Shown here piece after piece: positions 6,864 through 59,796 of a DNA stretch of 64,000 bases. The position numbers and the translations under genes are program-made. The stretch is from NCBI RefSeq assembly GCF_030116705.1, contig NZ_JAOTIK010000004.1, positions 57,570-121,569 on the forward strand, read 5' to 3'. This DNA comes from Streptomyces sp. ML-6 (lineage in GTDB: Bacteria; Actinomycetota; Actinomycetes; Streptomycetales; Streptomycetaceae). The notes beneath the pieces were generated by a model that did not search any database, had not been told where the DNA came from, and was given only the letters and a program-made list of their open reading frames with translations. Position 1 is the first letter of the stretch; each line of letters opens with the position of its first letter.

Positions 6864-6895
6864 GATAACCCATGGATAAGGGTGCCGCCTACCTT
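6864..6895 (+). promoter_or_regulatory. SARP-box promoter of the SARP gene
   Basis: Heptamers GATAACC and GATAAGG are separated by four bases (11-bp period). They are followed by eight bases and the -10-like hexamer TACCTT, 44 bp before the regulator's ATG. The geometry is that of SARP binding sites, implying autoregulation or control by the second SARP at 60814. Confidence 0.6.
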
Positions 6896-6938
6896 CGGGT
6901 TCCATGCAGGAGGCTCAGACCTGAAAGGGGTTTGCCGC

Positions 6939-8780
6939 ATGGACTTCCGGATTCTCGGGCCGGTGGAGGCCCGGCGTGAGGGGGACTGGATCGCGCTGTC
7001 CGGTTCCAAGGTGCACACGGTCCTCGCCACGCTGCTGCTCGCGCACGGGCGGGTCGTCTCGGACTCCCGGCTCAGCGCGATGCTGTGGGGGTGGGACCCG
7101 CCGGTCACCGCGAACGCGCAGATCTACACGTACATGTCGCGGCTGCGCAAGCTGCTCGGCGACGGGGTCGAGATCGTGCGGCGCCAGCCGGGGTACATCC
7201 TGCGCGCGCCCGGGGCCCGTATCGACGTCGTCGAGTTCGAGCGGCTGGACCGGCTCGGCCGTGAGGCGCTGCGGGAGCGGCGGCACGCCGATGCGCGGGC
7301 GCTGCTGGGCGAGGCGCTGGGGTGGTGGCGCGGTCCGGCGCTGTCGAACGTGACCGAGTTCCTCCTGGAGGCCGAGCTGCCGCGGCTGGAGGAGGCGCGG
7401 ATGCTGGCGCTGGAGAACCGGATCGAGGCGGATCTCGCGCTGGGCATGCACGAGCAGGTGACCGCCGAACTGACGGGGCTGGTCGCCGAGCATCCCGTGC
7501 GGGAACGGCTGCGGGCGCAGCTGATGACCGCGCTGTACCGGTGCGGGCGGCAGGCCGATGCGCTGCAGACGTACTACGAGGGGCGCAAGGTGCTCGTCGA
7601 TCAGCTGGGGGTGGATCCGGGTGAGGTGCTCGGGGCCACGTACCAGGCCGTGCTGGGCGGGGAGTTGCGGCTGCGGGGTGCAGGGGCGGCGCGGGGGCGG
7701 TCCGATGTGCCCGCCATGCTTCCCGCGGCGGAGGGTGATTTCGTGGGCCGGGCCGCGGAGCGGTCGCTGCTGGCGGCGCGGCTGGCGGAGGGGGCTGGGC
7801 GGCCCCGGCGTCTGCTGGTGACGGGGATGGCGGGGGTGGGCAAGACGGCGCTCGTGGTGCGGGCCGCGCAGGACTGTGCGGGCCGTTTTCCCGACGGGCA
7901 GCTCTTCGCCGAGCTGTGTCACCGTGACGGCAGGCCCAAGGACGCCGGCGAGGTGCTGGTGCGGCTGCTGCGTGCGCTGGGCGAGCCGGGGCTGGAGGAG
8001 GGTTCCTCGCGGGCCCTGGACCGGGACGAGCTGGTCCGGCTCTACCGGGCGCGGACCTCGGGCAAGCGGCTCCTGGTCGTTCTGGACGATGCGGCGGGTG
8101 ATCTGCAGGTGGCGCCGTTGCTGCCGGCGAGCCCGCAGGCGGCCGTGCTGATCACGAGCCGGTCCCGGCTGGCCCGGGTGGCGGGGGCGGACACGGTGGC
8201 CCTGGCTCCGCTGGACGAGGAGGAGTCGCTGGCGATGCTGGTGGCGGCGGCCGGTGCGGAGCGGCCGGCGAAGGACCCGGATGCCGCCGAGGACCTGGTG
8301 GCCTATTGCGGGGGGCTGCCGCTGGCGCTGGCCGTGGTGGGGGCGCGGATGGCGGCGCGGCCGTCGTGGCCGGCGGGGCGGTTCGCGAACCGGCTCGCGG
8401 ATCCGGCGCGGCGGCTGGCGGAGCTGTCGTTCGGTGATCTGGATGTGCGCGGGGCGTTGCTGCCGTCGGTGCGGCGTCTGGCGGCTGCCGGTCCGCAGGC
8501 GCTCGCGATGCTGTCGGGTGCCGGTACGGAGCCGTTCTCGGCGCGGGACGTGTCGGTGCGTCTGGGGGTGTTGGAGGAGGAGGCGGAGCGGGTGCTGGAG
8601 CTGCTGGTGGACAGCGCGCTGCTGGATCTGTCGGGGCTCGATGCGCAGGGGCTTCCGCTGTACCGGTGTCATGAGCTGGTGCTGTTGTACGCGGCGGCGC
8701 CGGACCCGGCCGCTTTCGCTCCCCCGTCCTCCGTGGGGGGTGCGGGGGTGGTGCGCGGCGGTGCCACCGCGGTCGGGTGA
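6939..8780 (+). CDS. SARP-family transcriptional activator with NB-ARC domain (no TPR)
   Basis: A 613-residue cluster-situated regulator. An OmpR-type winged-helix domain occupies about residues 1-95 (MDFRILGPVEARREG, then SRLSAMLWGWDPP and YIYMSRLR-like helices). The bacterial transcriptional activation domain covers about 100-245, ending QLGVDPGEVLGATYQAVL. An NB-ARC/STAND ATPase follows, with Walker A GMAGVGKTALV near 295 and Walker B LLVVLDDA near 375. It lacks the C-terminal TPR array of AfsR, so it is an intermediate-length SARP. The ATG at 6939 follows GAAAGGGG; the much longer open frame upstream is a shadow of the BNR gene. Its own promoter carries the box found across the cluster, so it is the likely pathway activator. 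Confidence 0.9.
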   Translation: MDFRILGPVEARREGDWIALSGSKVHTVLATLLLAHGRVVSDSRLSAMLWGWDPPVTANAQIYTYMSRLRKLLGDGVEIVRRQPGYILRAPGARIDVVEFERLDRLGREALRERRHADARALLGEALGWWRGPALSNVTEFLLEAELPRLEEARMLALENRIEADLALGMHEQVTAELTGLVAEHPVRERLRAQLMTALYRCGRQADALQTYYEGRKVLVDQLGVDPGEVLGATYQAVLGGELRLRGAGAARGRSDVPAMLPAAEGDFVGRAAERSLLAARLAEGAGRPRRLLVTGMAGVGKTALVVRAAQDCAGRFPDGQLFAELCHRDGRPKDAGEVLVRLLRALGEPGLEEGSSRALDRDELVRLYRARTSGKRLLVVLDDAAGDLQVAPLLPASPQAAVLITSRSRLARVAGADTVALAPLDEEESLAMLVAAAGAERPAKDPDAAEDLVAYCGGLPLALAVVGARMAARPSWPAGRFANRLADPARRLAELSFGDLDVRGALLPSVRRLAAAGPQALAMLSGAGTEPFSARDVSVRLGVLEEEAERVLELLVDSALLDLSGLDAQGLPLYRCHELVLLYAAAPDPAAFAPPSSVGGAGVVRGGATAVG

Positions 8781-8790
8781 CCGCGGTGGC
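8763..8790 (+). terminator. Hairpin overlapping the SARP stop codon
   Basis: A perfect 12-bp stem with loop GGGT whose right arm begins inside the TGA stop. It lies between convergent genes (the next gene ends at 8840 on the other strand) and probably terminates both. Confidence 0.55.
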
Positions 8791-8839
8791 CGGGGCGGGG
8801 GTGGCGGTGCCGTTCACGGGAGGGCCGGCGTGCGGGGTG

Positions 8840-9385
8840 TCACCATGTTCCGCGGGTCCAGGAGTAGGTGGGGATCTCGGGGACGAGGGCGGGGGCGATG
8901 GTCTCGCGGACCACGGTCCAGGCGTCGGCGACGAGGCGTTCGCGGGGCGGGCGGGGTGTGGCGGGGGTGAGGGCGGTGGCGGTGACCGCCCACATCGCGG
9001 CGACGGCGGCGACGGCCCGGACCTCGGCGGAGGGCTTGGCCGGGAGGGTGCGGCTCCGGCCGACGTCGATGCGGAAGCCGAGTTCGGTGGCCTGGGCGGT
9101 GCGCACCTGGTGGGCGACCGTGCTGTCGGGGTGGGCGAACACGGTGGTGGACAGGGGGTGTTCGTAGGCGGTGCGGACCCAGGCGCAGACCCGGACGCGT
9201 TCGCGTTCCTCCCAGCCGCCGGGTGCGGCGGGGCCGGGGTCGGCCTGTTCGACGGCGGTGGCGAGGTCGGCGAAGTACCGGGTCAGTGCGGTGTCGTCGA
9301 GCGGGCCGGGGCTTTCGGCGGGGGTGGTGGCCGGGGCGGGGCCGGGGTGGCGGGGTGGTGCGGTTTGGAGGTGCGGTGTGGTCAT
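8840..9385 (-). CDS. Hypothetical protein, 181 aa
   Basis: I do not recognise this protein. After about 40 Pro/Thr/Ala-rich residues it appears mostly helical: a DTALTRYFADLATAVEQA segment, a WEERERVRVCAWVRTAYEHP segment, a middle containing AHQVRTAQATELGFRIDVG and an end containing VVRETIAPALVPEIPTYSW. The C-terminal part is loosely reminiscent of ligand-binding domains of TetR regulators, but no helix-turn-helix is visible, so no function is assigned. Its ATG overlaps the stop of the upstream PPTase gene (ATGA), which makes translational coupling certain and suggests a role linked to carrier-protein activation or the pathway. Start at 9385 was chosen on that overlap. Confidence 0.7.
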   Translation of the reverse strand: MTTPHLQTAPPRHPGPAPATTPAESPGPLDDTALTRYFADLATAVEQADPGPAAPGGWEERERVRVCAWVRTAYEHPLSTTVFAHPDSTVAHQVRTAQATELGFRIDVGRSRTLPAKPSAEVRAVAAVAAMWAVTATALTPATPRPPRERLVADAWTVVRETIAPALVPEIPTYSWTRGTW

Positions 9386-10224
9386 GAGGGCGGGTTTCCT
9401 TCGGTGCGGGGCGGTGTGCCGGGCCGGCCGGGCGGTGCGGGGAGGGGGTGGATGTGGACGGGTCCGGGGGGGTTGTCGCCGGGCGGGCGGGCGAGGGCGG
9501 CGGCGACGTGGTCGTCGAGTTGCAGGTCCTGTACCGACCAGACGGTGGTGCGGCCGGAGTGGGTGTGCAGGACGCGGACCGGTCCGTGCCGGGCCGGCCA
9601 GGTCTCCAGCCGGTTCAGTGCGGTGCCCACCAGGCCGAGTCCGGCTGCTTTCACGACGGCTTCCTTGCGGGTCCAGATGCGGTGGAAGCCGGTGTCGCGC
9701 CGGGGTCCGGGCGGCAGTGAGAGCAGGTGGGCGCGTTCGTTGTCGGTCAGTACCGAGTCGTACAGCGAGGTGCGGCGCAGGGGGCGCACCTCTTCGACAT
9801 CGATGCCGATGGCGTGTCCTTCGGTGAGGGCGAAGACGCCGTATCCCGCGGTGCGGGAGAGGCTGATGGCCCAGGGCACTTGGGGGTGTTCGATGATGGG
9901 CGGGCCGTGTCCGGGGTCTTTGCAGCCGGGGCAGCGGCGGCGGCCCAGTTCGATGGTTTGCGGTGGTACGAGCAGCAGTTCGGACAGGGCGCGGCGTGCT
10001 CCGGCCCTGGTGTGCACGAAGGCGGCGACGTCCCGTTCGGCCAGCAGGCTCAGGGCGCGGTGGAATTCGTCGGTGCCGAGCAGGGCGAGGTCGTCGGGGA
10101 GGACTTGCTGCGGTGGCTGCCACCACCAGATGTGGGCGGCGCCGGCGAGGTCCGGTGGGGTGGGGGCGGCCCGGGGTGGCTGCCCGGGGCCGGTGTTGTT
10201 CGGTGTGTCGTGCGTGAATGCCAT
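9382..10224 (-). CDS. 4'-phosphopantetheinyl transferase, Sfp type (first copy)
   Basis: A 280-residue Sfp-type PPTase that would convert apo-carrier domains of the NRPS and PKS to the holo form using coenzyme A. The family's magnesium-binding motif is visible as IGIDVEEVRPL near residue 140, and the C-terminal signature as WTRKEAVVKAAGLGL near residue 190. A CPGCKDPGHGPP stretch near residue 98 is also typical of actinomycete homologues. The ATG at 10224 is preferred over the long upstream extension because that reads through the divergent promoter region. The gene has its own SARP-box promoter (10361). A second PPTase of the same type lies at 15991. Confidence 0.92.
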   Translation of the reverse strand: MAFTHDTPNNTGPGQPPRAAPTPPDLAGAAHIWWWQPPQQVLPDDLALLGTDEFHRALSLLAERDVAAFVHTRAGARRALSELLLVPPQTIELGRRRCPGCKDPGHGPPIIEHPQVPWAISLSRTAGYGVFALTEGHAIGIDVEEVRPLRRTSLYDSVLTDNERAHLLSLPPGPRRDTGFHRIWTRKEAVVKAAGLGLVGTALNRLETWPARHGPVRVLHTHSGRTTVWSVQDLQLDDHVAAALARPPGDNPPGPVHIHPLPAPPGRPGTPPRTEGNPPS

Positions 10225-10360: not shown

Positions 10361-10392
10361 ATCGTCCGCCGGGCGGCTACGGGCCGTCTATA
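10361..10392 (-). promoter_or_regulatory. SARP-box promoter of the PPTase operon
   Basis: On the minus strand: heptamers TATAGAC and CGTAGCC, four bases apart, then eight bases and the -10-like hexamer GACGAT. It stands back-to-back with the hydroxylase box at 10412 inside a 256-bp divergent promoter region. Confidence 0.5.
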
Positions 10393-10411: not shown

Positions 10412-10443
10412 CGTAGGGTTGCGATAGCGGTTCCCCGGAGACT
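10412..10443 (+). promoter_or_regulatory. SARP-box promoter of the hydroxylase gene
   Basis: Heptamers CGTAGGG and GATAGCG on an 11-bp period, then eight bases and the -10-like hexamer GAGACT, 37 bp before the ATG of the hydroxylase. Confidence 0.55.
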
Positions 10444-10480: not shown

Positions 10481-11491
10481 ATGTCCAAGACCCATACGCT
10501 TTTTGTGCCGCGTTCCGCGGCTGCGGCCGGTACTGTCGTGGAGCTGACCGCGGCCGAGCGAAGTGCGGTGGCCGCGGTCGCCGGGCAGTTGGTGGCGCAG
10601 GATCCGGGGGGCGGCAGGATCGATGATCCTTGCTGGCTGGAGGCTGCTCGTGAGGTGTCCGTGCGGCTTCCGCACCGGATTCTCGCGGCGTTGCGGGCGT
10701 TCCGGCACGATGCGGGCCCCGACGGGGTGCTCCTGCTGCGCGGTCTGCCGGTGGTGGCGGGCGATCCGCTGCCGGCGACTCCGGCGGTGAAGGGGTCGGT
10801 GGAGCGTGTGCCCACCGTCGCCGCTTCCGTGATCACCACCGCGATGCTTCATCTCGGGGAGGTGGTGGCGTTCCGCAACGAGAAGGGCGGTGCCCTGGTG
10901 CAGAATGTTGTTCCGGTGCCGGGGAGTGAGACTTCGCAGAGCAATGCGGGTTCTGTTCTTCTCGAACTCCACATCGAGAACGCTTTCCATGACAACCGCC
11001 CGGATTTTGTGGGTCTGCTGTGTGTGCGGGAGGATCCGACGGGGGATGCGAGGCTGTGCACGTCGTCGGTCCGCCGGGCGCTTCCGCTGCTTTCCGCGAA
11101 GGCGCGGGCGGTGCTGGGTGAGCCGCGGTTCCTGACGGAGCCGCCGCCGTCCTTCGGTGTGCTGGACCGGGTGGCGGCCGCCCATGCGGTGCTGAACGGG
11201 GATGCGGCGGATCCCAATGTGCTGGTGGACTTCTCCGCCACGCATCCGCTGGACGACGAGGCCCGGGGGGCCATGGCGGAGCTGCGGGAGGCGTTCGTGG
11301 AGACGATGTCGGCGCTGTCGCTGCGGGTGGGTGACCTGGCCGTGGTGGACAACCGTCTGGCGGTGCACGGCCGTACGTCGTTCACTCCGTCCTATGACGG
11401 TGCGGACCGCTGGCTGCACCGGGTGTACGCGCATCTGGACCACCGGCGCAGCCGGGTGGACCGGGCGGGCAATGGTGCGGTGCTGGGCTGA
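10481..11491 (+). CDS. Fe(II)/2-oxoglutarate-dependent amino-acid hydroxylase, VioC/AsnO-like
   Basis: A 336-residue oxygenase of the clavaminate-synthase-like superfamily, to which the arginine beta-hydroxylase VioC and asparagine beta-hydroxylase AsnO belong. The iron-binding triad is visible: H164 and E166 in the ELHIENAFHDNRPDF segment, which matches the family consensus, and H296 in RLAVHGRTSF. An arginine near residue 313 (RWLHRVY) is placed to bind 2-oxoglutarate. The enzyme probably hydroxylates the beta-carbon of a free amino acid before NRPS loading. Several A domains in the cluster have asparagine-like pocket residues, so asparagine is a reasonable candidate, with arginine next. 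Start at 10481 follows GAGGGA. Confidence 0.85.
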   Translation: MSKTHTLFVPRSAAAAGTVVELTAAERSAVAAVAGQLVAQDPGGGRIDDPCWLEAAREVSVRLPHRILAALRAFRHDAGPDGVLLLRGLPVVAGDPLPATPAVKGSVERVPTVAASVITTAMLHLGEVVAFRNEKGGALVQNVVPVPGSETSQSNAGSVLLELHIENAFHDNRPDFVGLLCVREDPTGDARLCTSSVRRALPLLSAKARAVLGEPRFLTEPPPSFGVLDRVAAAHAVLNGDAADPNVLVDFSATHPLDDEARGAMAELREAFVETMSALSLRVGDLAVVDNRLAVHGRTSFTPSYDGADRWLHRVYAHLDHRRSRVDRAGNGAVLG

Positions 11492-11622: not shown

Positions 11623-14199
11623 TCATTGGCGGGCGCTGATGACGTCGGCGGGGCGGCCGCCGAGGGCGACGCGGCCGGGGACCAGGGTGGCCGTTGCGGT
11701 GAGGAGTGCGGCCAGGCCGAGGACGCCCAGGAACATCGGCAGGTCGAGGGAGGGCTGGGCGGCGCCGGTCATCCCGATGCTGAAGGCGGTGAGGACCGCG
11801 AGGGAGATGGCGGTGCCCAGGACCGCGGCGACCAGGACGATCAGGGCGGACTCGATCCTGAGCATCGACATCACCTGGCGGCGGGTGGTGCCGACCAGGC
11901 GCAGGAGGGCGAACTCGCGGGTGCGGTCGGAGACCGACATGGCCAGGGTGTTGACCACGGCGATCGCGGTGAACGCGATGATCAGGCCCATGGCGAGGTA
12001 GTTGACCTCGGCGTTGGACTGCTGGACCTCGGCCTGGAGGTCGTCGACCTGGGTGCGGTCCATGACGCCGAGGCCGGGGAACTGTTTGAGGGCGGCGGCC
12101 AGTTGTTCGCGGCCGGCCTTGCCGTCGCCGATGGTCTTGACCAGGACGGAGGAGGCCAGCGGGTTGTCGACGTGCCGGGACACCAGGGCGTGGGACATGG
12201 TCAGGTCGCCGAATCCCAGGCCGCGTTCGTAGACGGCGGCGACCTTCAGTTCGACCACGGTGGCGTCGCCGAGGGTCACTTTGAGCGTGTCGCCGGGTTT
12301 CTTGCCGAGGTGGTCGGCGGAGACGTCGCTCATCGCGATGCTCCTGTCCCCGAAGCCCTTGAGGCTTCCCCGGGAGACGTCGGGGTCCCAGTTGGTGGTG
12401 AGGCCGGGGGCGGAGATGCCCTGGGCGGGGTACTTGTCGAGGCCGACGCGGACCTGGGTGCGGACAATCTCGGTGACCTGAGTGACGCCGGGCACGGTGC
12501 GCAGGGCGTCGGTGGCCTGGGCGGGGACGCCGGGGCCGTCGGAGGCGACCACCCAGTCGGCCCGGTTGCCGGCCTTGGCCTGGGCCGTGGCGGCGTCGCC
12601 CATGGTGGTCTGCACGAACAGGACGGTGCAGGCCATGCCGATGAGCAGGACCAGGGGGGTGACGGCGGCGGCCATCCGTTTGGCGTTGGCGCGGGCGTTG
12701 GCGGTGGCGAGGTGGCCGCCGACGCGGGAGAGTTTCAGCGGGATGCCCAGGACGGCGACGGCGATGCGGGCGATGACCGGGCCGAGCAGTGAGACCGCGA
12801 CGGCCAGGACGACGACGGACAGGAACGTGACGGGCTGCGAGGCCGGTTCGGTGCGCAGGAAGCCCAGCAGGACGACGACGCCGATGCCGAGGGCCAGGAC
12901 GAGGATGCCCGCGCCGAGCCGTCCCCAGGCGAAGTGGCGCTGTTCCATGGATGCTTCGGACAGGGCTTCGGCGGGGCGGATGCGGGCGGTGCGGCGGGCG
13001 GAGATGCGGGCCGCGACCCAGGCGCCGAGCAGGGCCGCGCCGACGGCGGCGGCGAACGGCACGAAGCTGAAGGTGAGTTCGAGGGTGTCGGGGATGGCCT
13101 TGAAGTCGATGAACTTGCTGTGCAGCCAGTACGCGATGGGCAGGCCGGCCACCGAGCCGAGGCCGCCGGCGAGGCCGCCGATGATCAGGGCTTCGCGGCC
13201 GATCAGCTGGCGGACCTGCTTGGGGGTGGCGGCGATGGCGCGCAGCAGGGCGAGTTCGCGGTAGCGCTGCTGGATGGACAGGGCGAAGGTGCCGACGACG
13301 ACGAGGACCGCGACGAGCAGGGAGGTGCCGCCCATGGCGCCGCCCATGGAGACGAGTTTGACGCGGGCCTTGCCCGCGTCGAGGAATTCGATGGGGCCGC
13401 GTTCGCCGCCGGTGGCGACGGCGTACCTGCGGCCGTCGCCGTCCAGGGCCTTCTTCGCCTGGTCGGCGAGGTCGGAGGGGGAGACGCCGGGTTTGGGCAG
13501 CAGGCCGACGGCGGTGATCCGGCCGGGGCGGCCGGACAGGGTGCGGGCGGTCTCGTCGGAGAAGAACAGGGAGGTCTGCTGGTGCAGGTCGCCGTCCTGG
13601 GGTGCGGCGATGCCGCTGACCTTGTAGGTGGTGGGGGCGCCGGTGGACTGGATGACGAGACTGCTGCCGGTCTTCAGGCCGGTGCGGGTGGCCAGTTCCC
13701 GGTCCAGGACGACGTCGCCCGGGTGGGTGGGTGCTTTGCCCTCGGTCAGCCGGAAGGGGGTCAGTTCGGCGGAGGACCAGGCGTGTCCGTAGGAGGGTTT
13801 GTTGTCGATGCCGGGCACGATGCGGCCCTGGGGGCCGACGGCGTGGGCGGGGAAGTTCGTCTCGGGCACCGCCTTGCGCACGCCGGGCAGGGCGGCGAGG
13901 GTCTGGAGGGTTTTCTCGGGCAGCCAGACCCGTTCGGCCAGGGGCTTGGCCTTGTGCTTCTGTTTGACCTTGCCCTTCTTCTTCTTGATGGTGGTCTGGT
14001 GGACGTTCTGGTCGGCGCCGACGATGACCGGGGCGGCGGCGTAGCGTTCGGTGGCGATGGTGCCGCGCAGGCCGGTTTCCAGGAGGATGCCGCAGGCGGT
14101 GACCAGGGCGGCGGCGCAGAACAGGGCGAGGAAGGCGCCGATGAAGCCGCCTTTCCTGGCCTTGAGGGTCTGCAGTGCGTAGCGCAGCATCAGGCCCAC
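11623..14199 (-). CDS. ABC transporter permease, FtsX/MacB-like
   Basis: An 858-residue permease of the duplicated FtsX type. A membrane segment at about residues 17-37 precedes a large extracytoplasmic domain. Two FtsX cores then follow: membrane helices around VAVLVVVGTFALSIQQRYRELALLRAIAATPKQV (near 290-320), and the matching C-terminal AFTAIAVVNTLAMSVSDRTREFALLRLVGTTRRQV (near 745-780). The paired RxxELALLR and RTREFALLR signatures are diagnostic. It forms an exporter with the upstream ATPase, probably for product efflux or self-resistance. Start 14199 has GGGAG close upstream and overlaps the ATPase end; an alternative ATG lies at 14190. Confidence 0.9.
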   Translation of the reverse strand: MGLMLRYALQTLKARKGGFIGAFLALFCAAALVTACGILLETGLRGTIATERYAAAPVIVGADQNVHQTTIKKKKGKVKQKHKAKPLAERVWLPEKTLQTLAALPGVRKAVPETNFPAHAVGPQGRIVPGIDNKPSYGHAWSSAELTPFRLTEGKAPTHPGDVVLDRELATRTGLKTGSSLVIQSTGAPTTYKVSGIAAPQDGDLHQQTSLFFSDETARTLSGRPGRITAVGLLPKPGVSPSDLADQAKKALDGDGRRYAVATGGERGPIEFLDAGKARVKLVSMGGAMGGTSLLVAVLVVVGTFALSIQQRYRELALLRAIAATPKQVRQLIGREALIIGGLAGGLGSVAGLPIAYWLHSKFIDFKAIPDTLELTFSFVPFAAAVGAALLGAWVAARISARRTARIRPAEALSEASMEQRHFAWGRLGAGILVLALGIGVVVLLGFLRTEPASQPVTFLSVVVLAVAVSLLGPVIARIAVAVLGIPLKLSRVGGHLATANARANAKRMAAAVTPLVLLIGMACTVLFVQTTMGDAATAQAKAGNRADWVVASDGPGVPAQATDALRTVPGVTQVTEIVRTQVRVGLDKYPAQGISAPGLTTNWDPDVSRGSLKGFGDRSIAMSDVSADHLGKKPGDTLKVTLGDATVVELKVAAVYERGLGFGDLTMSHALVSRHVDNPLASSVLVKTIGDGKAGREQLAAALKQFPGLGVMDRTQVDDLQAEVQQSNAEVNYLAMGLIIAFTAIAVVNTLAMSVSDRTREFALLRLVGTTRRQVMSMLRIESALIVLVAAVLGTAISLAVLTAFSIGMTGAAQPSLDLPMFLGVLGLAALLTATATLVPGRVALGGRPADVISARQ

Positions 14200-15051: not shown

Positions 15052-15083
15052 AGCGTGTTCCGTACTTCTATATTCGATCTATT
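15052..15083 (-). promoter_or_regulatory. SARP-box promoter of the ABC exporter operon
   Basis: Minus strand: heptamers AATAGAT and TATAGAA on an 11-bp period, then eight bases and CACGCT. It overlaps the last bases of the upstream membrane-protein gene, so the exporter has its own start of transcription. Confidence 0.5.
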
Positions 15084-24905: not shown

Positions 24906-24909
24906 ACCG

Positions 24910-24941
24910 ATGCTCGCGGGGTGCGCTATGTGCGTCCTATA
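24910..24941 (-). promoter_or_regulatory. SARP-box promoter of the ebo-type operon
   Basis: Minus strand: heptamers TATAGGA and CATAGCG on an 11-bp period, then eight bases and GAGCAT. It is about 160 bp before the first gene. The divergent side of this 378-bp gap carries only a partial match (GATAGGG at 25014) before the membrane-protein gene. Confidence 0.55.
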
Positions 24942-25131
24942 ACCGCCCCGGCGGGGTGTACTGGCTGGTCACGGGGGTGCGGGCGGGGGTGGAAGCCGCC
25001 GTGATGCCCGGACGATAGGGCAACGGATTACGTTCCTCCGGAAAACGGCCGTACGTGGCGCCGGGCCGTTCTCCGGCCCCGTGTGCACGGGCCGGCAGCC
25101 GGTCACTGCCCCCACCAGTGAAGGAGACACT

Positions 25132-41004: not shown

Positions 41005-41036
41005 ATGGTTGGGCGGGGCCCTATCAGGCCCCTATG
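41005..41036 (-). promoter_or_regulatory. SARP-box promoter of the mbtH-NRPS operon
   Basis: Minus strand: heptamers CATAGGG and GATAGGG on an 11-bp period, the most alike pair in the window, then eight bases and AACCAT, about 36 bp before mbtH. Confidence 0.6.
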
Positions 41037-48395: not shown

Positions 48396-48776
48396 GGGAT
48401 GCCTCCGGGTATCGGTTCGGGTTCTTCTGGGGCCTGGCCCCTTTTTTTTCCGGGCCCTTCATCTCCGGGCCCTTCATCCCCGGCCCCCCCTTTTTTTCCG
48501 GGTCCTTCTTCCCCGGCCCCCTTCTTCCGGGTCCTTCTTCTCCCGGCCGGGACTCCCGGTGCAAGGGCCCCCGGGTGCCGGGGATTTCGGTTTCCGGGGG
48601 TTTCCGGTGCCGGGCCCCGGGTGCCGGGGATTTCCGGTGCCGGGGTTTCGGTGCCGGGGTTCTTTCGGTGCCGGGTTTTCGGGTGCGGGGTTTCGGTGCC
48701 GGGGTTCTTCCGGTGCCGGGGGTGGGGGTGCGGGTTTCCGGGTTCCTGGTGGGAGAAATCCTGCGGCGGCCCGCTA
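48396..48776 (-). repeat. Low-complexity leader upstream of the ACP gene
   Basis: This 381-bp gap holds no gene. The half near the ACP has repeated TTTTTTTCCGGG and CCTTCTTCCCCGG-type units (A-rich runs on the transcribed strand). The other half has many copies of GGTGCCGGGGTTTC. It could be a long structured leader, or contain a terminator for sbnA. Confidence 0.6.
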
Positions 48777-49829
48777 TTACTGGGCTATATCGGCCAGTTG
48801 CCCCGCCGCGGGAGCGGGTGCGGGGGTCTGGTCCCACAGGTGGGTGACGTCCCCGAAGTGGCGGCGTACCCAGGTGTCGTCGTAGATCGTGTCGAGGTAG
48901 CGGTCGCCGCCGTCGGGCAGCACGATCACGACGTTGGAGCCGGGTGGTATGGCGGGGGCGAGGCGGGCCAGGGCGGCGACGACGGCGCCCGAGGAGCCGC
49001 CGGCCAGGATCGCCTCGCGGCGTACCAGGGTGCGGCAGCCCACCACGCAGTCCAGGTCGCCGACGTGCACGACGCGGTCGGCGTCGCCGGGCCGCAGCAG
49101 GCGGGGGGCGATGGACGCGCCGTGGCCGGGCACCAGGCGGGTGCAGGGGGCGGGCGGGCCGAACAGGGCGCTGCCCAGGGCGTCGACGGCGTTGAGGGTG
49201 GTGCCCAGGCGGTGGTGGCGGATGTAGTCGGCGCAGCCGCCGAGGGTGCCGCTGGTGCCGGCGGCCACGACGAGCTGGTCGACCTTGCCGTCCAGGGCGA
49301 GGTCGATCTCCTGCATGGTGGTGTGGTGGGCCTGCCGGTTGAGCGGGTTGGCGTACTGGTCGGGCCAGTAGGCGTGGGGGGTGGCCGCCACGAGTTCGGC
49401 GACCCGGTGCAGGCGGGCGGGCAGCAGCTGGCCGGTGGCCGGGTCGGGTTCGGTGATGATCTCGACCTCGGCGCCGTAGGCGCGCAGGATCGCGATGTTC
49501 TGCCGGGTGGTGCGGGAGTCGACCACGCACACGAGCCGCAGGCCGTAGTAGCCGCAGATCTGCGCCAGTCCGATCGCGAGGTTTCCCGAGCTGGACTCGA
49601 TGACCGTGGAGCGGCCGGGGACGAGTTCGCCCGACCGGATTCTCGCGGCCACCATGTTCAGCGCGGAGCGGTCCTTGACGCTGCCGCCGGGGTTGAAGCG
49701 CTCCATCTTGGCGAACACCCGCGAAGCGAACCCCGGTATCAGCCGTTCGAGCTCTACGAGCGGGGTTCCTCCCACGGTGGAAAGGATTCCTTTCGGCCCC
49801 GTCTTCGGCTCCCGTTCTGTGCGCGGCAT
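48777..49829 (-). CDS. sbnA: SbnA-like 2,3-diaminopropionate biosynthesis enzyme
   Basis: A 350-residue PLP-dependent enzyme of the cysteine synthase fold. The PLP lysine is in ERFNPGGSVKDRSALNM near residue 47, the substrate loop in IESSSGNLAIGLAQIC near 80, and the phosphate-binding loop in VVAAGTSGTLGGCADYIR near 180. SbnA condenses O-phosphoserine with glutamate to ACEGA, which SbnB then oxidises to 2,3-diaminopropionate. An SbnB homologue lies at 58687, so the pair is complete although split 9 kb apart. The ATG at 49829 gives the expected family length. The promoter carries a SARP box and faces the halogenase promoter. Confidence 0.9.
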   Translation of the reverse strand: MPRTEREPKTGPKGILSTVGGTPLVELERLIPGFASRVFAKMERFNPGGSVKDRSALNMVAARIRSGELVPGRSTVIESSSGNLAIGLAQICGYYGLRLVCVVDSRTTRQNIAILRAYGAEVEIITEPDPATGQLLPARLHRVAELVAATPHAYWPDQYANPLNRQAHHTTMQEIDLALDGKVDQLVVAAGTSGTLGGCADYIRHHRLGTTLNAVDALGSALFGPPAPCTRLVPGHGASIAPRLLRPGDADRVVHVGDLDCVVGCRTLVRREAILAGGSSGAVVAALARLAPAIPPGSNVVIVLPDGGDRYLDTIYDDTWVRRHFGDVTHLWDQTPAPAPAAGQLADIAQ

Positions 49830-49881: not shown

Positions 49882-49913
49882 AGGCTGTGCCCGTGCGCTA
49901 TACGCCCTCCATA
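49882..49913 (-). promoter_or_regulatory. SARP-box promoter of sbnA
   Basis: Minus strand: heptamers TATGGAG and TATAGCG on an 11-bp period, then eight bases and CAGCCT. It is 53 bp before the sbnA start, in a 213-bp region shared with the halogenase. Confidence 0.5.
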
Positions 49914-49956: not shown

Positions 49957-49988
49957 TATAGATGTGCCGTAGACAGGCTGCCGATTCT
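49957..49988 (+). promoter_or_regulatory. SARP-box promoter of the halogenase operon
   Basis: Heptamers TATAGAT and CGTAGAC on an 11-bp period, then eight bases and GATTCT, 54 bp before the halogenase ATG. Confidence 0.55.
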
Positions 49989-53835: not shown

Positions 53836-53857
53836 CTGGCTGCTGTGGCCGGCTGGG

Positions 53858-54114: not shown

Positions 54115-55242
54115 TCATGCGGCTGTGGTGATCCGGGCCCCGGCGGCGGGGGGCCGGGCGGAGGCGGGGGGCCGGGCGGCCGGGGGGCGGGGGGTTGAGG
54201 TGGCCCGTACCCACCGGTCGAGGGTGGCGGCCGCGGCGCCGGAGTCGATCGCCCGGCCCGCCGCCTCCACCGCCCGGCCCAGGCGTTCGGTGACGGTGCG
54301 GCCCCGGGCCGGTTCGCCCGCCACCAGTGCCGCGCCCGCCGACAGCAGCACCGCGTCCCGTACCGGGCCGCGTTCGCCGTCCAGGACGCGCCGGGCGACG
54401 GCCGCGTTGTGGGCGGCGTCCTGTCCCCGCAGTGCCCGGGGCGGGGCGAGGGCGATGCCCACGTCGCGCGGGTCGAAGCGTTCCCGGGTGATGTCTCCGT
54501 CCTGGACGGCCAGGACGGTGGAGGTGGTGGTGACGGTGAGTTCGTCCAGGCCGTCGTCGCCGCGGAAGACCAGTCCCCTGCCGCCGGCGCGGGCCAGTGC
54601 CCCGGCGATCAGCGGGAGCATGCGGGCCTCGGCGACCCCGATCGCCTGGGCGGTGGGGGCCGCCGGGTTGGTCAGCGGCCCCAGCGCGTTGAAGACGGTG
54701 GGGATGCCCAGCTGTCTGCGCGGGCCGGCGGCATGGCGCATCGCGGGGTGGAAGTCGGGGGCGAAGCAGAAGGTGATGCCGGCCTCGTCGGCCACGGCGG
54801 CGACCCGTTCGGGCGGCAGCCGCAGGGTGACGCCCAGCGCTTCCAGGACGTCGGCGGAGCCGGAGGCCGAACTCGCCGCACGGTTGCCGTGCTTGACGAC
54901 CCGTGCGCCGGCTCCCGCCGCGACGATCGCGGACATCGTGGAGATGTTGACGGTGCGGGCCCCGTCGCCCCCGGTGCCCACCACGTCGACGGTCCTGCCC
55001 GGCACGTCGATGTGCACGGCGTGGGCCAGCATGCCGTGCACGAGTCCTTCGAGCTCGTCCACGGTCTCGCCCTTGGCCCGCAGGGCCACCAGGAAACCGG
55101 CGATCTGCGCTTCGGTGGCCCGCCCCCGCATCACCTGGTCCATCGCCCAGGCGGTGTCGAGGGCGTCCAGGTCCCGGCCCCCGAGCACCTGCCCCAGCAG
55201 CAGGGGCCAGGAGCGTTCCGGTGATGGTCTCGTGGCGCTCAC
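54115..55242 (-). CDS. trpD: Anthranilate phosphoribosyltransferase
   Basis: A 375-residue TrpD. The PRPP-binding [21 protein letters not shown] near residue 86 and the [23 protein letters not shown] segment near 110 are intact, as is [13 protein letters not shown] near 170. It joins anthranilate to phosphoribosyl pyrophosphate in tryptophan synthesis. An about 25-residue Ala/Pro-rich tail is unusual. GTG at 55242 is preferred because AAGGAG lies nine bases upstream, whereas the ATG at 55263 lacks a ribosome site. It starts 45 bp after the small DDPWHP-repeat gene and is probably co-transcribed with it. A pathway-specific copy would raise tryptophan supply for halogenation. Confidence 0.9.
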
Positions 55243-55287
55243 TGGTCCTGTCTCCTTCTTCATCGTCAGTCGGTCGCGGTGCGGGGC

Positions 55288-55614
55288 TCAGGCGCCCGGC
55301 GCCGGGTGCCAGGGGTCGTCCGCCGAGGCCGGTCCGGCCGCCGGGGCGGGGTGCCAGGGGTCGTCCGCCGGCCCGGAAGCGGCCGCCAGGCCCGGGTGCC
55401 AGGGGTCGTCCGCCGGCGCGGGGGCCGGGGAGGGGTGCCACGGGTCGTCCAGCAGGCCGGCGGCCACGGTGGCCGGGCAGGAACTGCCGCAGGTTTCCGG
55501 GCCGCTCTGCCCGGCCGCCTGCGCGGCGCCCTGCCCGGCGGCGAATAACGCCGCACCGGCCAGGGCCCCGACGGCGGCCTTGCGGATCTTCCCGGTGATC
55601 GCATTGAGCTCCAT
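55288..55614 (-). CDS. Small secreted peptide with four DDPWHP repeats
   Basis: A 108-residue protein that I do not recognise. Residues 1-33 look like a Sec signal peptide (basic GKIRK, hydrophobic AAVGALAGAALFAAG, cleavage near AQA or AQAA). After CGSSC comes a tail in which DDPWHP occurs four times, spaced 13, 15 and 15 residues apart by Ala/Pro/Gly linkers, ending DDPWHPAPGA. ATG at 55614 has GGGGGG upstream. The even layout resembles multi-core precursor peptides, and the repeats each carry one tryptophan beside a tryptophan halogenase and trp genes. No RiPP-type modifying enzyme other than the halogenase and monooxygenase is visible, so a surface or metal-binding role (the His and Asp residues) is equally possible. 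Confidence 0.65.
   Translation of the reverse strand: MELNAITGKIRKAAVGALAGAALFAAGQGAAQAAGQSGPETCGSSCPATVAAGLLDDPWHPSPAPAPADDPWHPGLAAASGPADDPWHPAPAAGPASADDPWHPAPGA
55304..55449 (-). repeat. Four copies of a 17-bp repeat encoding DDPWHP
   Basis: Plus-strand GGGTGCCAGGGGTCGTC at 55304, 55349 and 55394, and a one-base variant at 55433; spacing 45, 45 and 39 bp. Linkers between copies have diverged, so the hexapeptide looks selected. Confidence 0.85.
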
Positions 55615-55937
55615 GATGTTTCCCCCCACATGAACTGTTGCGGCTCGTTCCGACATCCAGAACATTAGGAAGGACCGGTTTCGAATCATTATCGCCGGGC
55701 CTCCCGCCTGCCAGACCCGGCAATAAAATCGATATAACCGCTGCTCAGACCCCGTACGGGAAGGAATTCCCCGCCCTTGCGGAAGAGGACGGGAAGGGGC
55801 CCGGGACGGGGCCGGGGAAAAGGATCACCCCCCTTGCGGAAGGAACGGTCCGCATTCCGGTCACCCCACGCGGCAGCCGTGTTCCGGACGAAAGGATCCG
55901 TGCCTGTCTCCCCCTCCCCCGGCCACCCGCCGGAATT
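55615..55937 (-). promoter_or_regulatory. Intergenic region upstream of the DDPWHP gene
   Basis: A 323-bp gap with an AT-rich patch at 55720-55740 (ATAAAATCGATATAACC on the plus strand) and a GATAAT-like -10 near 55690 on the minus strand. It does not fit the SARP-box layout, so this gene pair may have a different promoter. A small GCCGGG/CCCGGC hairpin lies between the two. No gene was seen. Confidence 0.35.
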
Positions 55938-56771
55938 TCACCGGGTCTTCGGCCTGTCGCGCGCATCCGGCCCGCCCGCCCTCACCGCCGCACCCGGGAA
56001 AACGGACACGGGGACAGGAACGGGCCCGGGCACGGTGGATGCGGGCACGGTGGGTGCGGGTGCGGGCACGGTGGATGCGGGCACGGAGACGGGTGCGGGT
56101 GCGGGCACGGTGGATGCGGGCACGGTGGGTGCGGGTGCGGGCACGGTGGATGCGGGCACGGAGACGGGTGCGGGGGCGGGTGCGGTGGGTGCGGGGGTGG
56201 TGGGGCGGGCGGTGGCCAGGAAGTTGTCCAGGAGCCGCAGGCCGCCGGCGGTGGTGACGGACTCGGGATGGAACTGCACCCCCTCCACCGCCAGGGTGCG
56301 GTGGCGCAGCCCCATCACGTAGCCGTCGTCCTGGGAACGGGCGGTGACGGCCAGGGGAGGCGGCAGCGGCTCGGCGGCGATCAGCGAGTGGTAGCGCGTG
56401 GCGGTCAGGACCGGTTCCAGTCCCGCGAACACGCCGGTGCCGTCGTGGTGCACGGGGCTGGTCTTGCCGTGCCGGAGGCGTTTGGCGACGGTGACCCGGC
56501 CCCCGTAGGCCAGGCAGATGGCCTGGTGGCCCAGGCAGATGCCGAGCAGCGGTACCGTCCCGGCGAAGGCGCGGACCAGTTCGACGTGCCCGGAGGCGGC
56601 CGCGTGGCCGGGACCCGGGCCCAGGACGACGGCGTCGGGCCGCAGGGCGGCGAGCTGCTGCGGGGTACGGGTGTGCGAGCGCACGACGTCGGTGGCGGCG
56701 CCCAGGGTGCGCAGGTACTGGTCGATGATGTGGGTGAAGCTGTCGTAGGCGTCGACGAGCAGGACTTTCAC
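55938..56771 (-). CDS. trpG: Anthranilate synthase component II (glutamine amidotransferase)
   Basis: A 277-residue TrpG. The N-terminal VKVLLVDAYDSFTHIIDQYL, the catalytic cysteine in PLLGICLGHQAICLAYGG near residue 80, and the His-Glu pair in VEGVQFHPESVTT near 170 are intact. It supplies ammonia to TrpE. The normal domain ends near residue 190; the remaining about 85 residues are a VPASTVPAPAPT-type repeat tail not found in the family, encoded by tandem DNA repeats (56035-56175). GTG at 56771 overlaps the trpE stop (GTGA). Confidence 0.9.
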   Translation of the reverse strand: MKVLLVDAYDSFTHIIDQYLRTLGAATDVVRSHTRTPQQLAALRPDAVVLGPGPGHAAASGHVELVRAFAGTVPLLGICLGHQAICLAYGGRVTVAKRLRHGKTSPVHHDGTGVFAGLEPVLTATRYHSLIAAEPLPPPLAVTARSQDDGYVMGLRHRTLAVEGVQFHPESVTTAGGLRLLDNFLATARPTTPAPTAPAPAPVSVPASTVPAPAPTVPASTVPAPAPVSVPASTVPAPAPTVPASTVPGPVPVPVSVFPGAAVRAGGPDARDRPKTR

Positions 56772-58672
56772 GGTGTCAGCTCCCGTCCGGTCAGGGCCCA
56801 GTAGGCCGCGCCCATCTTGTGGAGGGTCTCGTGCCACTCGGCGCGGGGGCGGGAGTCGGCGACGATGCCCGCGCAGCTCTGGGTGGAGTAGGTGCCGGTG
56901 TCCGGGTCGTGCACGATCGTGCGGATGCACAGGGCGAGCCGGCTCCAGCCGCGCAGGTCGATGAGGCCGACGGCACCGGCGTACAGGCCGCGCGGTTCGC
57001 TCTCCAGTTCCTGGATGATCTCCATGGCGCGGATCTTGGGGGCGCCGGTGACGGTGCCGGCCGGGAAGGCGGCGCGCAGCACGCTCCAGGTGTCGTGTCC
57101 CGCCTCCAGGGTGCCCTGGACGGTGGAGACGAGGTGGAAGACGTGCGAGTACGTCTCGACTCTCATCAGATCCGGTGTCTGCAGCGTGCCGGGCGCGCAG
57201 ACCCGGCCGATGTCGTTGCGGCACAGGTCCACGAGCATGATGTGCTCGGCCCGTTCCTTCTCGTCGGCCAGCAGACGGGCGACCCGGGCCCGGTCGGCGG
57301 CCTCCTCGCCGCTGCGCGGCGCGGTCCCGGCGATGGGCCGCATGACGACCGTGCCGCCGCGGGTATGGAAGAGCACTTCGGGGCTGGCCCCGATGACGGT
57401 GCGCCCGGCGCGCGGCAGGAGGTACATGTACGGGGAGGGGTTGCGGCCGCGCAGGCGCCGGTAGACGTCCAGGGGGGCCAGGGAGGTGGCGACGTCGATG
57501 CGGTGGCCGATCTGGATCTGGTAGATGTCACCGACACCGATGTGTTCCAGGCAGCGCCGCACCCGTGCCAGGAACGTCTCCTCGTCGCAGGTGTCCCTCA
57601 CCCGGTACGGGCGGGGCGCTTCGGGCAGGACCCCGCCCTCCGTGCTCTCCCCGCCCGCCGCGGCCAGGGCAGCGGCGGCGGTGACGGCCGCGGTGACCAC
57701 CCCCGCACCCGCGAGGCTGGCGGGGACGGCTGAGGCGGTGGCGGGGCCGGGGCCGGCCGTGGAGCCGGTGGCGGCCGAGGTCGTGGCGGGGCCGGGGACG
57801 GCCGTGGAGCCGGTGGCGGCCGTGGGGCCGGGGACGGCTGAGGCGGTGGCGGGGCCGGCGGCGGCTGAGGTGCCGGCGGCCGTGGGACCGGTGACGGCGG
57901 TTGTGGCTGCGGCGGTTGGGGTGCCGGTGGGAGTCACGGGGCCGACGGGGGGTGTGGGGTGGGGGGCGGGGTCGGGGAAGGCGTCGCTGTGGGCGGTGAG
58001 CCTGCGCACCGTGCCGGGTTCGGGGCCGTACCAGAGGGTCTCGCGGAACAGGCCGAGCACGATGTCGGGCCCGGCGGCGGGTCCGGCGGCGGGTCCGGCG
58101 GCGGGTGCGGCGGCGGGTCCGGCGGCGGGTGCGGCGGCGGGTGCGGCATCGGGTGCGGCATCGGGTGTGGGGGCGGGTGTGGTGTCCCGGCCGGGCAGGG
58201 TCTCCATGTGCCAGGCGGAGCCGTAGCCGAAGGTGGCCAGGAACCCGAAGGCGTAGCTGTCGCGGGGGCGGGTGGTCTCCACGGTGAACAGGTCCTGGAC
58301 GGCGCGCAGCAGCTGCCAGGTCTGCTCGCGGTGGACCAGGCCGCGTTCGTTGCCGGGGCGGGGGGCCAGGCCCAGGGCGTCGGCGGTCTGGAGGATTGCG
58401 GTGACCAGGGGGGCGGTGCCGTGGACGGTGATCCGGTCGGCGTGCAGGCGGATCTCGGCGAGCAGTCCGTGGCCCACGACCGTGGCCGCGGGGTCCTGGC
58501 CGGGGTGGGGGGCGTTCTCCAGCAGGAACACCTCGTGGGGCGCGTGCCGGTGCAGTACGGCGTACAGGTCGAGCGGCCGGTGGGGGGCGGGGCGGGTCTC
58601 CTCCACCCGGACGGTGATGGCGCCCGGTGCGGGACGGGGCGGGCGGGGCGGGCTGTCGAGCACGGTGGTCAC
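56768..58672 (-). CDS. trpE: Anthranilate synthase component I with a low-complexity insert
   Basis: A 634-residue chorismate-binding enzyme. The catalytic C-terminal domain is complete: MRPIAGTAPRSGEEAADRARVARLLADEKERAEHIMLVDLCRNDIGRV and PAGTVTGAPKIRAMEIIQELE, then the CAGIVADS end. TrpE proteins are usually about 500 residues. The extra length comes from Ala/Pro/Gly/Thr repeats between the N-terminal regulatory domain (ends near 215) and the catalytic domain (starts near 370), in two blocks (58080-58160 and 57720-57940). Separate trpG makes this anthranilate synthase, not the fused TrpEG form. GTG at 58672 has AGGAG upstream and lies 14 bp after sbnB. Confidence 0.88.
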   Translation of the reverse strand: MTTVLDSPPRPPRPAPGAITVRVEETRPAPHRPLDLYAVLHRHAPHEVFLLENAPHPGQDPAATVVGHGLLAEIRLHADRITVHGTAPLVTAILQTADALGLAPRPGNERGLVHREQTWQLLRAVQDLFTVETTRPRDSYAFGFLATFGYGSAWHMETLPGRDTTPAPTPDAAPDAAPAAAPAAGPAAAPAAGPAAGPAAGPDIVLGLFRETLWYGPEPGTVRRLTAHSDAFPDPAPHPTPPVGPVTPTGTPTAAATTAVTGPTAAGTSAAAGPATASAVPGPTAATGSTAVPGPATTSAATGSTAGPGPATASAVPASLAGAGVVTAAVTAAAALAAAGGESTEGGVLPEAPRPYRVRDTCDEETFLARVRRCLEHIGVGDIYQIQIGHRIDVATSLAPLDVYRRLRGRNPSPYMYLLPRAGRTVIGASPEVLFHTRGGTVVMRPIAGTAPRSGEEAADRARVARLLADEKERAEHIMLVDLCRNDIGRVCAPGTLQTPDLMRVETYSHVFHLVSTVQGTLEAGHDTWSVLRAAFPAGTVTGAPKIRAMEIIQELESEPRGLYAGAVGLIDLRGWSRLALCIRTIVHDPDTGTYSTQSCAGIVADSRPRAEWHETLHKMGAAYWALTGRELTP

Positions 58673-58686
58673 GGGCGTGTCTCCTG

Positions 58687-59721
58687 TCAGCCGTAGCGGC
58701 ACGTCTCGTGGAAGAAGCCGTCCACGACGGCGAGTTCGCCGCGGGCGCGCAGGGTGTCGTAGACGTGCCCGCCCAGGGCGAGGTCCAGGACGCCGAGCCC
58801 GAAGGGCGAGAAGACGACGGGCCGGCCGTGCGGGACGTCCAGGGTGCCGGTGAGCACGTCGTACAGGGTGCCGGCGATGAAGTCCCGGTTCCCGGTGGCC
58901 TGTTCGGCCAGGTGCGGGGAGGTGCCGGCCCTGAGGCAGTGGTCGATGTCGTCGACGATGTTCGCGGCCGTGAGGATCACCTCGGGCGACAGGTCGCGCA
59001 AGGACACGTGCAGGACCAGGGGGTTGTGGGTGAACCAGCCGGGATCGGTGACGTGCGGGGCGGGGGCGACGGTGGCGAAGACGACGAGGTCGCTGGAGCG
59101 GATCAGCTCGCCGGGATCACTGTGCAGGGTGAGGGTGCCGTTGTCGCCCTCGCGTCCGAGGTGCCCGGCGAAACCCCGGGCGTGTTCGGCCGACAGGTCG
59201 TACACACCGGTTTCGGTGAAGCTCCAGCCGGTACGGGCGAGGTACTGGTGGATGAACCGGGCGATCAGGCCGGTGCCGAAGAAACCGATCCGGCGCGGCC
59301 GCTCGCGCCCCCGGGTGAGCCGGTCCGCGGCCAGCACCGCCGAGGCGGCGGTCCGGGCCGCGCTGATGATGGAACTCTCCATACAGGCCAGCGGGTAGCC
59401 GGTCACCGGGTCGTTCAGGACCAGGACCGCGGAGGCCCGGGGCAGGCCGGCCGCCACGTTCCGCGGGAAGCTGGAGATCCACTTGATGCCGTCCAGGGGC
59501 GCCGGCCCGCCCAGCGAGGCGGGCAGAGCGATGATCCGCGAGTCGGGACGGTCGGGAAAACGCAGGAAACAGGACGGCGGGTTGACCGTGTCACCACCGC
59601 CGTGCACACGGTAGGCCGACTCGACCAGCCGGACCACTTCCCCGTGCCGGCCGTCAAGGACTCGGTGCACGTCCGCGCCGGGAATCACGGCGAACGAAGG
59701 CACCCGGGGGGCAGGCGGCAT
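58687..59721 (-). CDS. sbnB: SbnB-like 2,3-diaminopropionate biosynthesis dehydrogenase
   Basis: A 344-residue member of the ornithine cyclodeaminase/mu-crystallin family, matching SbnB. The substrate-site lysine is in GIKWISSFPRNVAAGLPRASAVLVLND near residue 76, and the NAD-binding GxGxxA-type motif in IGFFGTGLIARFIHQYL near 145. It oxidises the SbnA product ACEGA to 2,3-diaminopropionate and 2-oxoglutarate. The ATG at 59721 is favoured by GGAG eight bases upstream and by family length; GTG at 59724 is possible. It leads the sbnB-trpE-trpG operon, so diaminopropionate and tryptophan supply are co-regulated. Confidence 0.9.
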   Translation of the reverse strand: MPPAPRVPSFAVIPGADVHRVLDGRHGEVVRLVESAYRVHGGGDTVNPPSCFLRFPDRPDSRIIALPASLGGPAPLDGIKWISSFPRNVAAGLPRASAVLVLNDPVTGYPLACMESSIISAARTAASAVLAADRLTRGRERPRRIGFFGTGLIARFIHQYLARTGWSFTETGVYDLSAEHARGFAGHLGREGDNGTLTLHSDPGELIRSSDLVVFATVAPAPHVTDPGWFTHNPLVLHVSLRDLSPEVILTAANIVDDIDHCLRAGTSPHLAEQATGNRDFIAGTLYDVLTGTLDVPHGRPVVFSPFGLGVLDLALGGHVYDTLRARGELAVVDGFFHETCRYG

Positions 59722-59764
59722 CACACACTCCACAGCTCTCGGGAAAAAGGGGAACTCCGTGACG

Positions 59765-59796
59765 ACGCTAGGCACATGCCTTATCGGCGTGATATC
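59765..59796 (-). promoter_or_regulatory. SARP-box promoter of the sbnB-trpE-trpG operon
   Basis: Minus strand: heptamers GATATCA and GATAAGG on an 11-bp period, then eight bases and TAGCGT. The second heptamer is identical to that of the SARP gene's own box at 6875. Confidence 0.6.

Follow-up and report, generated by a model that had tools for sequence, protein, structure and literature searches.

In the gene cluster carried by a 64,000-nucleotide stretch of Streptomyces sp. ML-6 (contig NZ_JAOTIK010000004.1, positions 57,570 to 121,569; the whole stretch is called the window below), promoters of one common geometry stand before genes for biosynthesis, export and regulation, and two regulators of the SARP family, SARP1 and SARP2, are encoded. 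Which regulator reads which promoter? A preliminary description had listed nine of these promoters as the single regulon of a single SARP; it left unmentioned both SARP2 (60814-63858, minus strand) and a small open reading frame (ORF) at 55288-55614 on the same strand. We find that the nine sites are real but not of one kind. Those before the SARP1 gene and sbnB form a second motif class, which tracks SARP2, and this class leads to the small ORF, the most interesting object in the window. Our preferred reading, to which we give a probability of roughly 60%, is that the cluster is run by a two-SARP cascade in which SARP2 senses a secreted peptide.

Two operator classes

All nine 32-bp sites can be read in the window at the positions first described, in a 7-4-7-8-6 layout and pointing to the genes that had been named (Table 1): heptamer repeats on an 11-bp period, then 8 bases, then a -10-like hexamer. 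The hexamers are a consensus guess, assigned by sequence and not from mapped starts. By their layout the sites are putative SARP operators, and they recur before the same genes in relatives. They tie the ebo genes (an operon name taken from the preliminary description) and the halogenase, export and trp genes to the pathway.

The supposed uniformity of the sites did not survive. Seven of the nine belong to a class A, with the motif TATAGg/gATAGcg and a weak -10 element, [GCA]AnnnT, that lacks the consensus first T; two belong to a class B, with the motif GATAAC/[GA]ATAA and the -10 element TAnnnT. Three sites had been omitted, at 48758 (minus strand, class A), 55662 (minus strand, class B) and 25003 (plus strand, weak). 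Class A sites precede the biosynthesis, export, ebo, halogenase and nonribosomal peptide synthetase (NRPS) genes, whereas class B sites precede SARP1, sbnB-trpEG and, at 55662, a unit made of the small ORF and trpD.

We compared 70 sites before biosynthetic genes (67 distinct, window included) with 22 sites before SARP1 homologs (18 distinct). Position 1 is G in 4 of the 70 and in all 22; position 5 is G in 68 of the 70 and in none of the 22; position 6 is C in 5 of 70 against 22 of 22; position 16 is G in 70 of 70 against 2 of 22; and position 27, the first base of the -10 element, is T in 0 of 70 against 22 of 22. Four sbnB sites match the SARP1 group at all five positions. The class A set omits some low secondary matches (G301 TauD 6873, G301 MbtH 36796, L023 sbnA 9812 and G296 PPT1 6614; G and L numbers are our handles for genomes and loci), two memb25 rows, one Cdom row and a 13.5-bit match at 1789. 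The split was seen first and put to a test afterwards, so p-values for it are only descriptive. A fairer test used models built from relatives only, with all sbnB sites kept out of the class B training. The sbnB site at 59765 then scored 29.0 with the B model and 1.7 with the A model, the SARP1 site at 6864 scored 40.8 and 1.6, and the B model revealed the new site at 55662 with a score of 20.7. The best background scores were 13.1 (A) and 9.3 (B) in 357.6 kb of the strain's own genome (18 stretches, about 4% of 9.13 Mb).

The cluster is present in several Streptomyces. Streptomyces sp. ADI95-17, S. gelaticus and S. tibetensis keep most of the sites ahead of the corresponding genes, with unchanged spacing; partial sets occur in S. 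lavendulae, S. xanthochromogenes, S. misionensis, S. turgidiscabies and also in clusters with other NRPS genes. The mbtH site of S. gelaticus falls below threshold, a site of the 25003 type was seen only in the window and S. gelaticus (none in G295), and among 36 sbnA-relative loci those from L035 onward mostly have no site.

A small gene linked to SARP2

The site at 55662 stands 48 nt ahead of a 108-codon ORF, which ends 24 nt before trpD and encodes an N-terminus like that of a signal peptide, followed by a linker and then four DDPWHP repeats. A class B site occurs at the same position in G295, G296, G301 and L023 (11.8 to 20.7), and on plasmid NZ_CP108877 a homolog in the same place, annotated as a hypothetical protein, has a B site of 18.7 before it. 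Database homologs that carry a name are called hypothetical, uncharacterised or secreted; a single transporter name is apparently misassigned.

Similar ORFs with acidic-x-(P)W motifs occur at 33 of 34 SARP2-clade loci, Kitasatospora mediocidica (G311) among them; 32 of the 34 loci are on the SARP2 tree and G296 and G297 were counted by identity, and the count is descriptive because the search rules were widened as new endings emerged. The endings near SARP2 orthologs include DMPWG twice (nine genomes), DLPWT twice, EVPWT two or three times, VDPWS one to five times, EQPWS twice, ENPWN, and ENPWP nine times, and six genomes have WH endings (SGEWH, EEDWH, DESWH, TEEWH). Among four large SARPs lying just beyond the clade, only that of G307 (Actinoplanes liguriensis) is accompanied by such an ORF, with the ending NWPWD. 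No peptide ORF with a B-type site was found near the SARP2-like proteins that lack TPR (G277 contig 353 and G292 contig 19), the latter contig holding an ORF that ends in LDPIWG. A stricter peptide rule gave nothing in the 357.6 kb of background and one unrelated match in L097. A looser rule gave three matches in the background and seven in 31 stretches that are SARP2-less or AfsR-like, all with upstream B scores of -6.3 or lower; looser rules also gave scattered matches, some of them inside SARP2 stretches (L100, L168).

All 26 database homologs of the DMPWG type retain DMPWG in both copies, with third-base changes inside the motif and with linkers that vary in length and letters; in 11 homologs of the window type the DDPWHP motif occurs two to four times. 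On the SARP2 tree (FastTree, 49 proteins), in which the SARP2 clade is separate from the AfsR rows, 28 tips were labelled by motif type; the types require 8 changes, the lowest number possible, whereas none of 1000 shuffles needed fewer than 14. A supposed contrast at SARP2 residues 790-797 between relatives with the peptide and five thought to lack it proved void, as four of the five have EWH-type peptides.

Comparison with AfsR and other systems

Both regulators have an N-terminal winged helix-turn-helix domain (Trans_reg_C) followed by BTAD, which makes them SARPs, and the NB-ARC and TPR parts that follow in SARP2 make it a large SARP of the AfsR type. It shares the domain order of AfsR, aligns with it over residues 12-978 and, like AfsR with afsS, has a small tandem-repeat gene in its neighborhood. 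The direct repeats of the AfsR operator likewise have an 11-bp period, and the one on the 3' side stands 8 bp from the -10 element (PMC10936776), as here. The operator sequences differ, GATAAC-type here and CGTT(T/C)ATCGNN for AfsR (PMC10972967). The AfsR residues T88 and R92 are described as touching bases (PMC10936776); numbered on the AfsR alignment they are T and R in SARP1 but I and A in SARP2, a point that sets SARP2 apart from AfsR itself.

The AfsR system also supplies the strongest alternative, namely that the small ORF encodes an intracellular helper of the AfsS type, a neighboring tandem-repeat protein activated directly by an AfsR-type SARP. The afsS promoter is described as a site of AfsR action (PMC10972967, PMC10936776), and among 23 AfsR-like loci that we read, 20 of which have an AfsR-type helix, 13 of those 20 have downstream of them a small ORF whose DxHx repeats number two to six, with three more added by another rule. 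AfsS itself is reported as a 63-residue sigma-like protein with three 12-residue repeats (PMC2267785). Here the repeats are xPW (DDPWHP) or xWH and not DxHx, a repeat definition that comes from our own search rule, and the members used have a hydrophobic, signal-like N-terminus (itself part of the search rule), so the small ORF is not of the AfsS type as we define it. We regard the helper as unlikely, if still deserving of real weight.

Downstream of AfsR we also saw signal-peptide ORFs whose motif is of the kind repeated in the AfsS-type ORFs, at L152 (the strain's own), L176 (G296), L186 (G040) and L193 (G213). Their motifs include ENHAG twice (the own pair of the window strain) and DSHIT three times, and the script separated them from AfsS-type ORFs by the N-terminus itself. 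Because these ORFs repeat the AfsS-type motif at four AfsR loci, AfsR may share the peptide logic that we propose for SARP2.

Two-step SARP control has precedents in PolY-PolR and CpkO-CpkN, where one cluster SARP activates the gene of the other (PMC10972967). What differs here is the presence of two separable operator classes over many clusters and of a linked peptide-like gene. Heptameric direct repeats with 4-nt spacers are likewise described for the operators of PimR-type SARP-LAL regulators (PMC10972967).

For the peptide there is a parallel with the RRNPP systems of the Bacillota (PlcR-PapR, Rap-Phr, NprR-NprX), in which a TPR regulator is paired with a small secreted propeptide; here the secretion is putative. 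RRNPP receptors are defined without BTAD and NB-ARC domains, and SARP2, which has both, falls outside that definition; the hosts, Streptomyces, Kitasatospora and Actinoplanes, differ as well. By a crude hydropathy rule a small, putatively secreted propeptide does accompany a TPR regulator; in the window 5 kb separates the pair. SARP2 residues 690-1014 form a predicted TPR superhelix that aligns to Rap, NprR and other TPRs among the 50 rows listed by a VIA-align search, and no AfsR chain is among those 50. Tandemly duplicated propeptides occur in RRNPP systems (PMC11343458), the signal PapR7 is given as ADLPFEF (PMC6568020), and a survey of the family describes signals in the Actinomycetota as typically small molecules (PMC10075063). 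In the titles and abstract openings of the open-access literature (subscription papers and preprints lay outside the scope) we found no link between a SARP and a peptide pheromone, and the peptide strings gave no match on Streptomyces by title.

Which SARP reads which class

Class B follows SARP2. A B site scoring at least 12 lies upstream of the SARP1 homolog in 27 of 30 genomes with a SARP2 ortholog; among the 30, SARP2 is on another contig in three and 45 kb away in one. In the eight genomes without full-length SARP2 there is no such site (0/8); G277 and G292, two of the eight, encode a shorter SARP2-like protein at another place. Ten more genomes, the window's own included, have SARP1-like proteins at 40 to 47%, and these also lack a B site of at least 12 (best 10.9); in most of these ten SARP2 was not sought. 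On G277 contig 353, where the 20 kb read encodes the shorter SARP2-like protein, without TPR, and no SARP1, two B sites score 25.0 and 23.3. The class B sites of this contig (L171, 5856 and 11443, minus strand) lie before trpE and an ORF resembling MbtH.

The single regulon first proposed would have SARP1 bind all sites, its own promoter among them, with class B as an autoregulatory variant that has a better -10 element. The identical geometry of the two classes is what it would predict, and so is a B site before SARP1 in most SARP2-bearing genomes. It does not account for the clean split at positions 1, 5, 6, 16 and 27, for the absence of class B before SARP1 in all eight SARP2-less genomes or for the B sites beside a SARP2-like protein on a stretch without SARP1. 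Because of the two-class split we have set it aside, and consider it improbable.

Alternatively, SARP2 might bind both classes, with SARP1 redundant or on a side branch. In favor of this, SARP2 is the larger of the two, resembles AfsR and is present in most site-bearing clusters, and G277 contig 353 has one A match of 21.2 near its SARP2-like protein. This arrangement is quite improbable, however, as class A occurs with SARP1-like genes, and with neither SARP2 nor a B site in the stretch, in G304 and on G315 contig 155, and as the base-contacting residues of AfsR are retained in SARP1 but not in SARP2, whose recognition helix is different. The assignment that most likely holds, judged from these sequence patterns, is that SARP2 drives class B, including SARP1, and that SARP1 drives class A.

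A proposed two-SARP cascade

In the cascade that we favor, SARP2 would bind the class B operators as a side-by-side dimer on the two 11-bp repeats, 8 bp from the -10 element, and recruit RNA polymerase to three transcripts: SARP1, sbnB-trpEG and the small ORF with trpD. The sbnB-trpEG transcript would supply diaminopropionate and anthranilate. SARP1 would then bind the class A operators and turn on the NRPS, ketosynthase, halogenase, sbnA, hydroxylase, exporter and ebo genes. If the AfsR initiation complex (PMC10936776) is a guide, each SARP dimer would lie over the -35 region and bring the polymerase to a poor promoter. Since their -10 element is TAnnnT and not [GCA]AnnnT, class B promoters would be expected to fire earlier or more easily. 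The small ORF product would be exported by means of its signal peptide and cut to short acidic-x-Pro-Trp peptides, and these would be re-imported and sensed by the TPR/NB-ARC part of SARP2, giving a positive-feedback quorum switch. Given a TPR regulator and a signal-peptide ORF, we infer the export, cleavage, uptake and sensing as the most economical reading.

Several observations weigh against this cascade. Signal peptides were called by a crude hydropathy rule, AfsS, the closest analogue, is described as sigma-like and not as secreted, and a common TPR fold, here a predicted one, shows no function. The agreement between peptide types and the SARP2 tree is to be expected from joint inheritance, because the genes are mostly neighbors, and is no proof of binding. 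No peptide ORF was found at the SARP2 locus of G015, and in G297 peptide and SARP2 are on separate contigs. B scores before 34 small ORFs, G307 included, are at least 11 in 19, between 2.8 and 9.5 in 10 and -1.7 in one, and in the remaining four were not taken from the right start. Three SARP2 genomes have no good B site before SARP1 (G213 5.2, G303 -3.4, G074 -2.2). Class A is less well tied to its regulator: the A match on G277 contig 353 has no SARP1 in its stretch, no A site above 11.3 lies near SARP1 homologs of 53 to 61% (14 to 20 kb each, in G201, G277, G159, G128, G142, G292 and G257), and among 12 SARP2-bearing genomes with SARP1 homologs of 51 to 55% a nearby A site was seen in G016 alone (23.9, the others at most 7.4). 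In G040, G065 and G074 the SARP1 stretch has no A site and A sites of 20.6 to 25.8 lie further off, so limited reach explains some of the missing sites. Kinship to SARP1 alone does not demonstrably predict class A.

Remaining alternatives

The small ORF lies immediately upstream of trpD in the window and has a Trp in each repeat, as a tryptophan attenuation leader might, and a RiPP (ribosomally synthesized and post-translationally modified peptide) precursor could also be imagined. In many relatives, though, the ORF adjoins SARP1 or SARP2 and stands away from the trp genes, for which reason we set the attenuator aside, and the window has no Rfam match at the gathering threshold; either role is very unlikely.

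A matrix built from the nine sites gives 10 matches of at least 20 in the window, the nine and the site at 48758, and none in 200 dinucleotide shuffles; nor did the 357.6 kb of own-genome background yield any site at that score. In leave-one-out scans every site ranks within the best 8 to 18 of about 128,000 positions, other training sites counted. A degenerate pattern finds the identical ten in the window and 1 in the background; over 200 shuffles it averages 0.17 and never exceeds 2. A class A model built on relatives gives, at period 11 and gap 8, 8 matches of at least 17 in each of three clusters, two of which had been in the training, and the other combinations tried give 0 to 2. Although the core letters are A/T-rich while the window is 73% GC, chance matches within A/T-richer promoter stretches can be dismissed in view of the shuffles, the background, the exact spacing and the conservation in relatives. 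One match of 20.2, class A-like, did appear in an additional 20-kb stretch of the same genome, picked for its SARP1 paralog (L133, 11347, minus strand; G000:C1, about 5.15 Mb). It lies within a second SARP/ketosynthase cluster, and cross-talk between the two clusters is possible.

Organization of the window

Table 1. Operator sites, regulators and associated genes in the window.
Feature	Position	Strand	Evidence or remark
Class B site before SARP1 gene	6864..6895	+	B model 40.8; kept before many SARP1 homologs
SARP1, 613 aa; Trans_reg_C, BTAD, NB-ARC, no TPR match	6939..8780	+	Pfam above cut-off
Class A site before phosphopantetheinyl transferase gene (9382-10224, minus strand)	10361..10392	-	Matrix, classes, relatives
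Class A site before TauD-type hydroxylase gene (about 10481-11491, plus strand)	10412..10443	+	Matrix, classes, relatives
Class A site 7 nt ahead of ABC exporter ATPase ATG (14190-15044, minus strand)	15052..15083	-	Matrix, relatives
Class A site before presumed ebo operon	24910..24941	-	Matrix, classes, relatives
Weak class B-like site before membrane protein gene (about 25132-26136, plus strand)	25003..25034	+	B model 12.1
Class A site before mbtH-NRPS	41005..41036	-	Matrix, relatives
Class A site before acyl carrier protein (ACP)-KS-CLF-KR genes, newly added	48758..48789	-	A model 26.7
Class A site before sbnA	49882..49913	-	Matrix, relatives
Class A site before tryptophan halogenase gene	49957..49988	+	Matrix, relatives
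trpD	54115..55263	-	Starts 24 nt past small ORF end
Small ORF, 108 aa, proposed pheromone precursor	55288..55614	-	Signal-peptide-like N-terminus, four DDPWHP repeats
Class B site before small peptide gene and trpD, newly added	55662..55693	-	B model 20.7
sbnB-trpE-trpG	55938..59727	-	Domain search
Class B site before sbnB-trpEG	59765..59796	-	B model 29.0, A model 1.7
SARP2, 1014 aa; Trans_reg_C, BTAD, NB-ARC, TPR; AfsR architecture	60814..63858	-	Pfam above cut-off

The names sbnA, sbnB and trpD are those carried in the annotation of plasmid NZ_CP108877, and the cluster is often plasmid-borne: among 30 matching plasmid records, all but one from Streptomyces, 19 contain at least 80% of the stretch 41000-60000, with about 88% identity in the ten records listed.

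Leaders vary in length. The ATG of the exporter ATPase (window 15044-15057) comes 7 nt after the class A -10 element, and 7-13 nt or so after it in most relatives; because it lies so near, the exporter transcript is probably leaderless. Between the class A site and the ACP gene stands a low-complexity leader of about 360 bp (48396-48757), compared with 55-132 bp in seven relatives. A simple repeat of the GTGCGGTGT type at 24780-24900 extends the leader of the ebo operon, where site and gene are 157 bp apart in the window and 51-83 bp apart in three relatives. A tandem repeat of several hundred base pairs (about 59850-60700), noticed in a translation, lies between SARP2 and sbnB, a gap that is short in G295, G296 and G301.

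Implications

The observation of a shared promoter geometry stands, and the single regulon should be replaced by two operator classes, which probably form a cascade. In its boldest form our reading would make SARP2-type regulators the receptors of secreted, often tandem, short pheromones, with a peptide for each clade (we propose DDPWHP, DMPWG, EVPWT, DLPWT, VDPWS and EEDWH as examples), and AfsR with AfsS may follow the same plan with DxHx peptides. We consider this generalization, which amounts to peptide quorum sensing over antibiotic-type clusters in Streptomyces, Kitasatospora and Actinoplanes, an even bet. If AfsR and AfsS do work in this way, it would explain what AfsS is for.

An operator code for two SARPs in one cluster means that regulons can be read from sequence and that silent clusters could be switched on by picking the right SARP. 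If the peptide reading is true, such clusters could be awakened by adding a short synthetic peptide, peptide pheromones would become a class of signal in Streptomyces, and the mode of action of AfsS would become directly testable.

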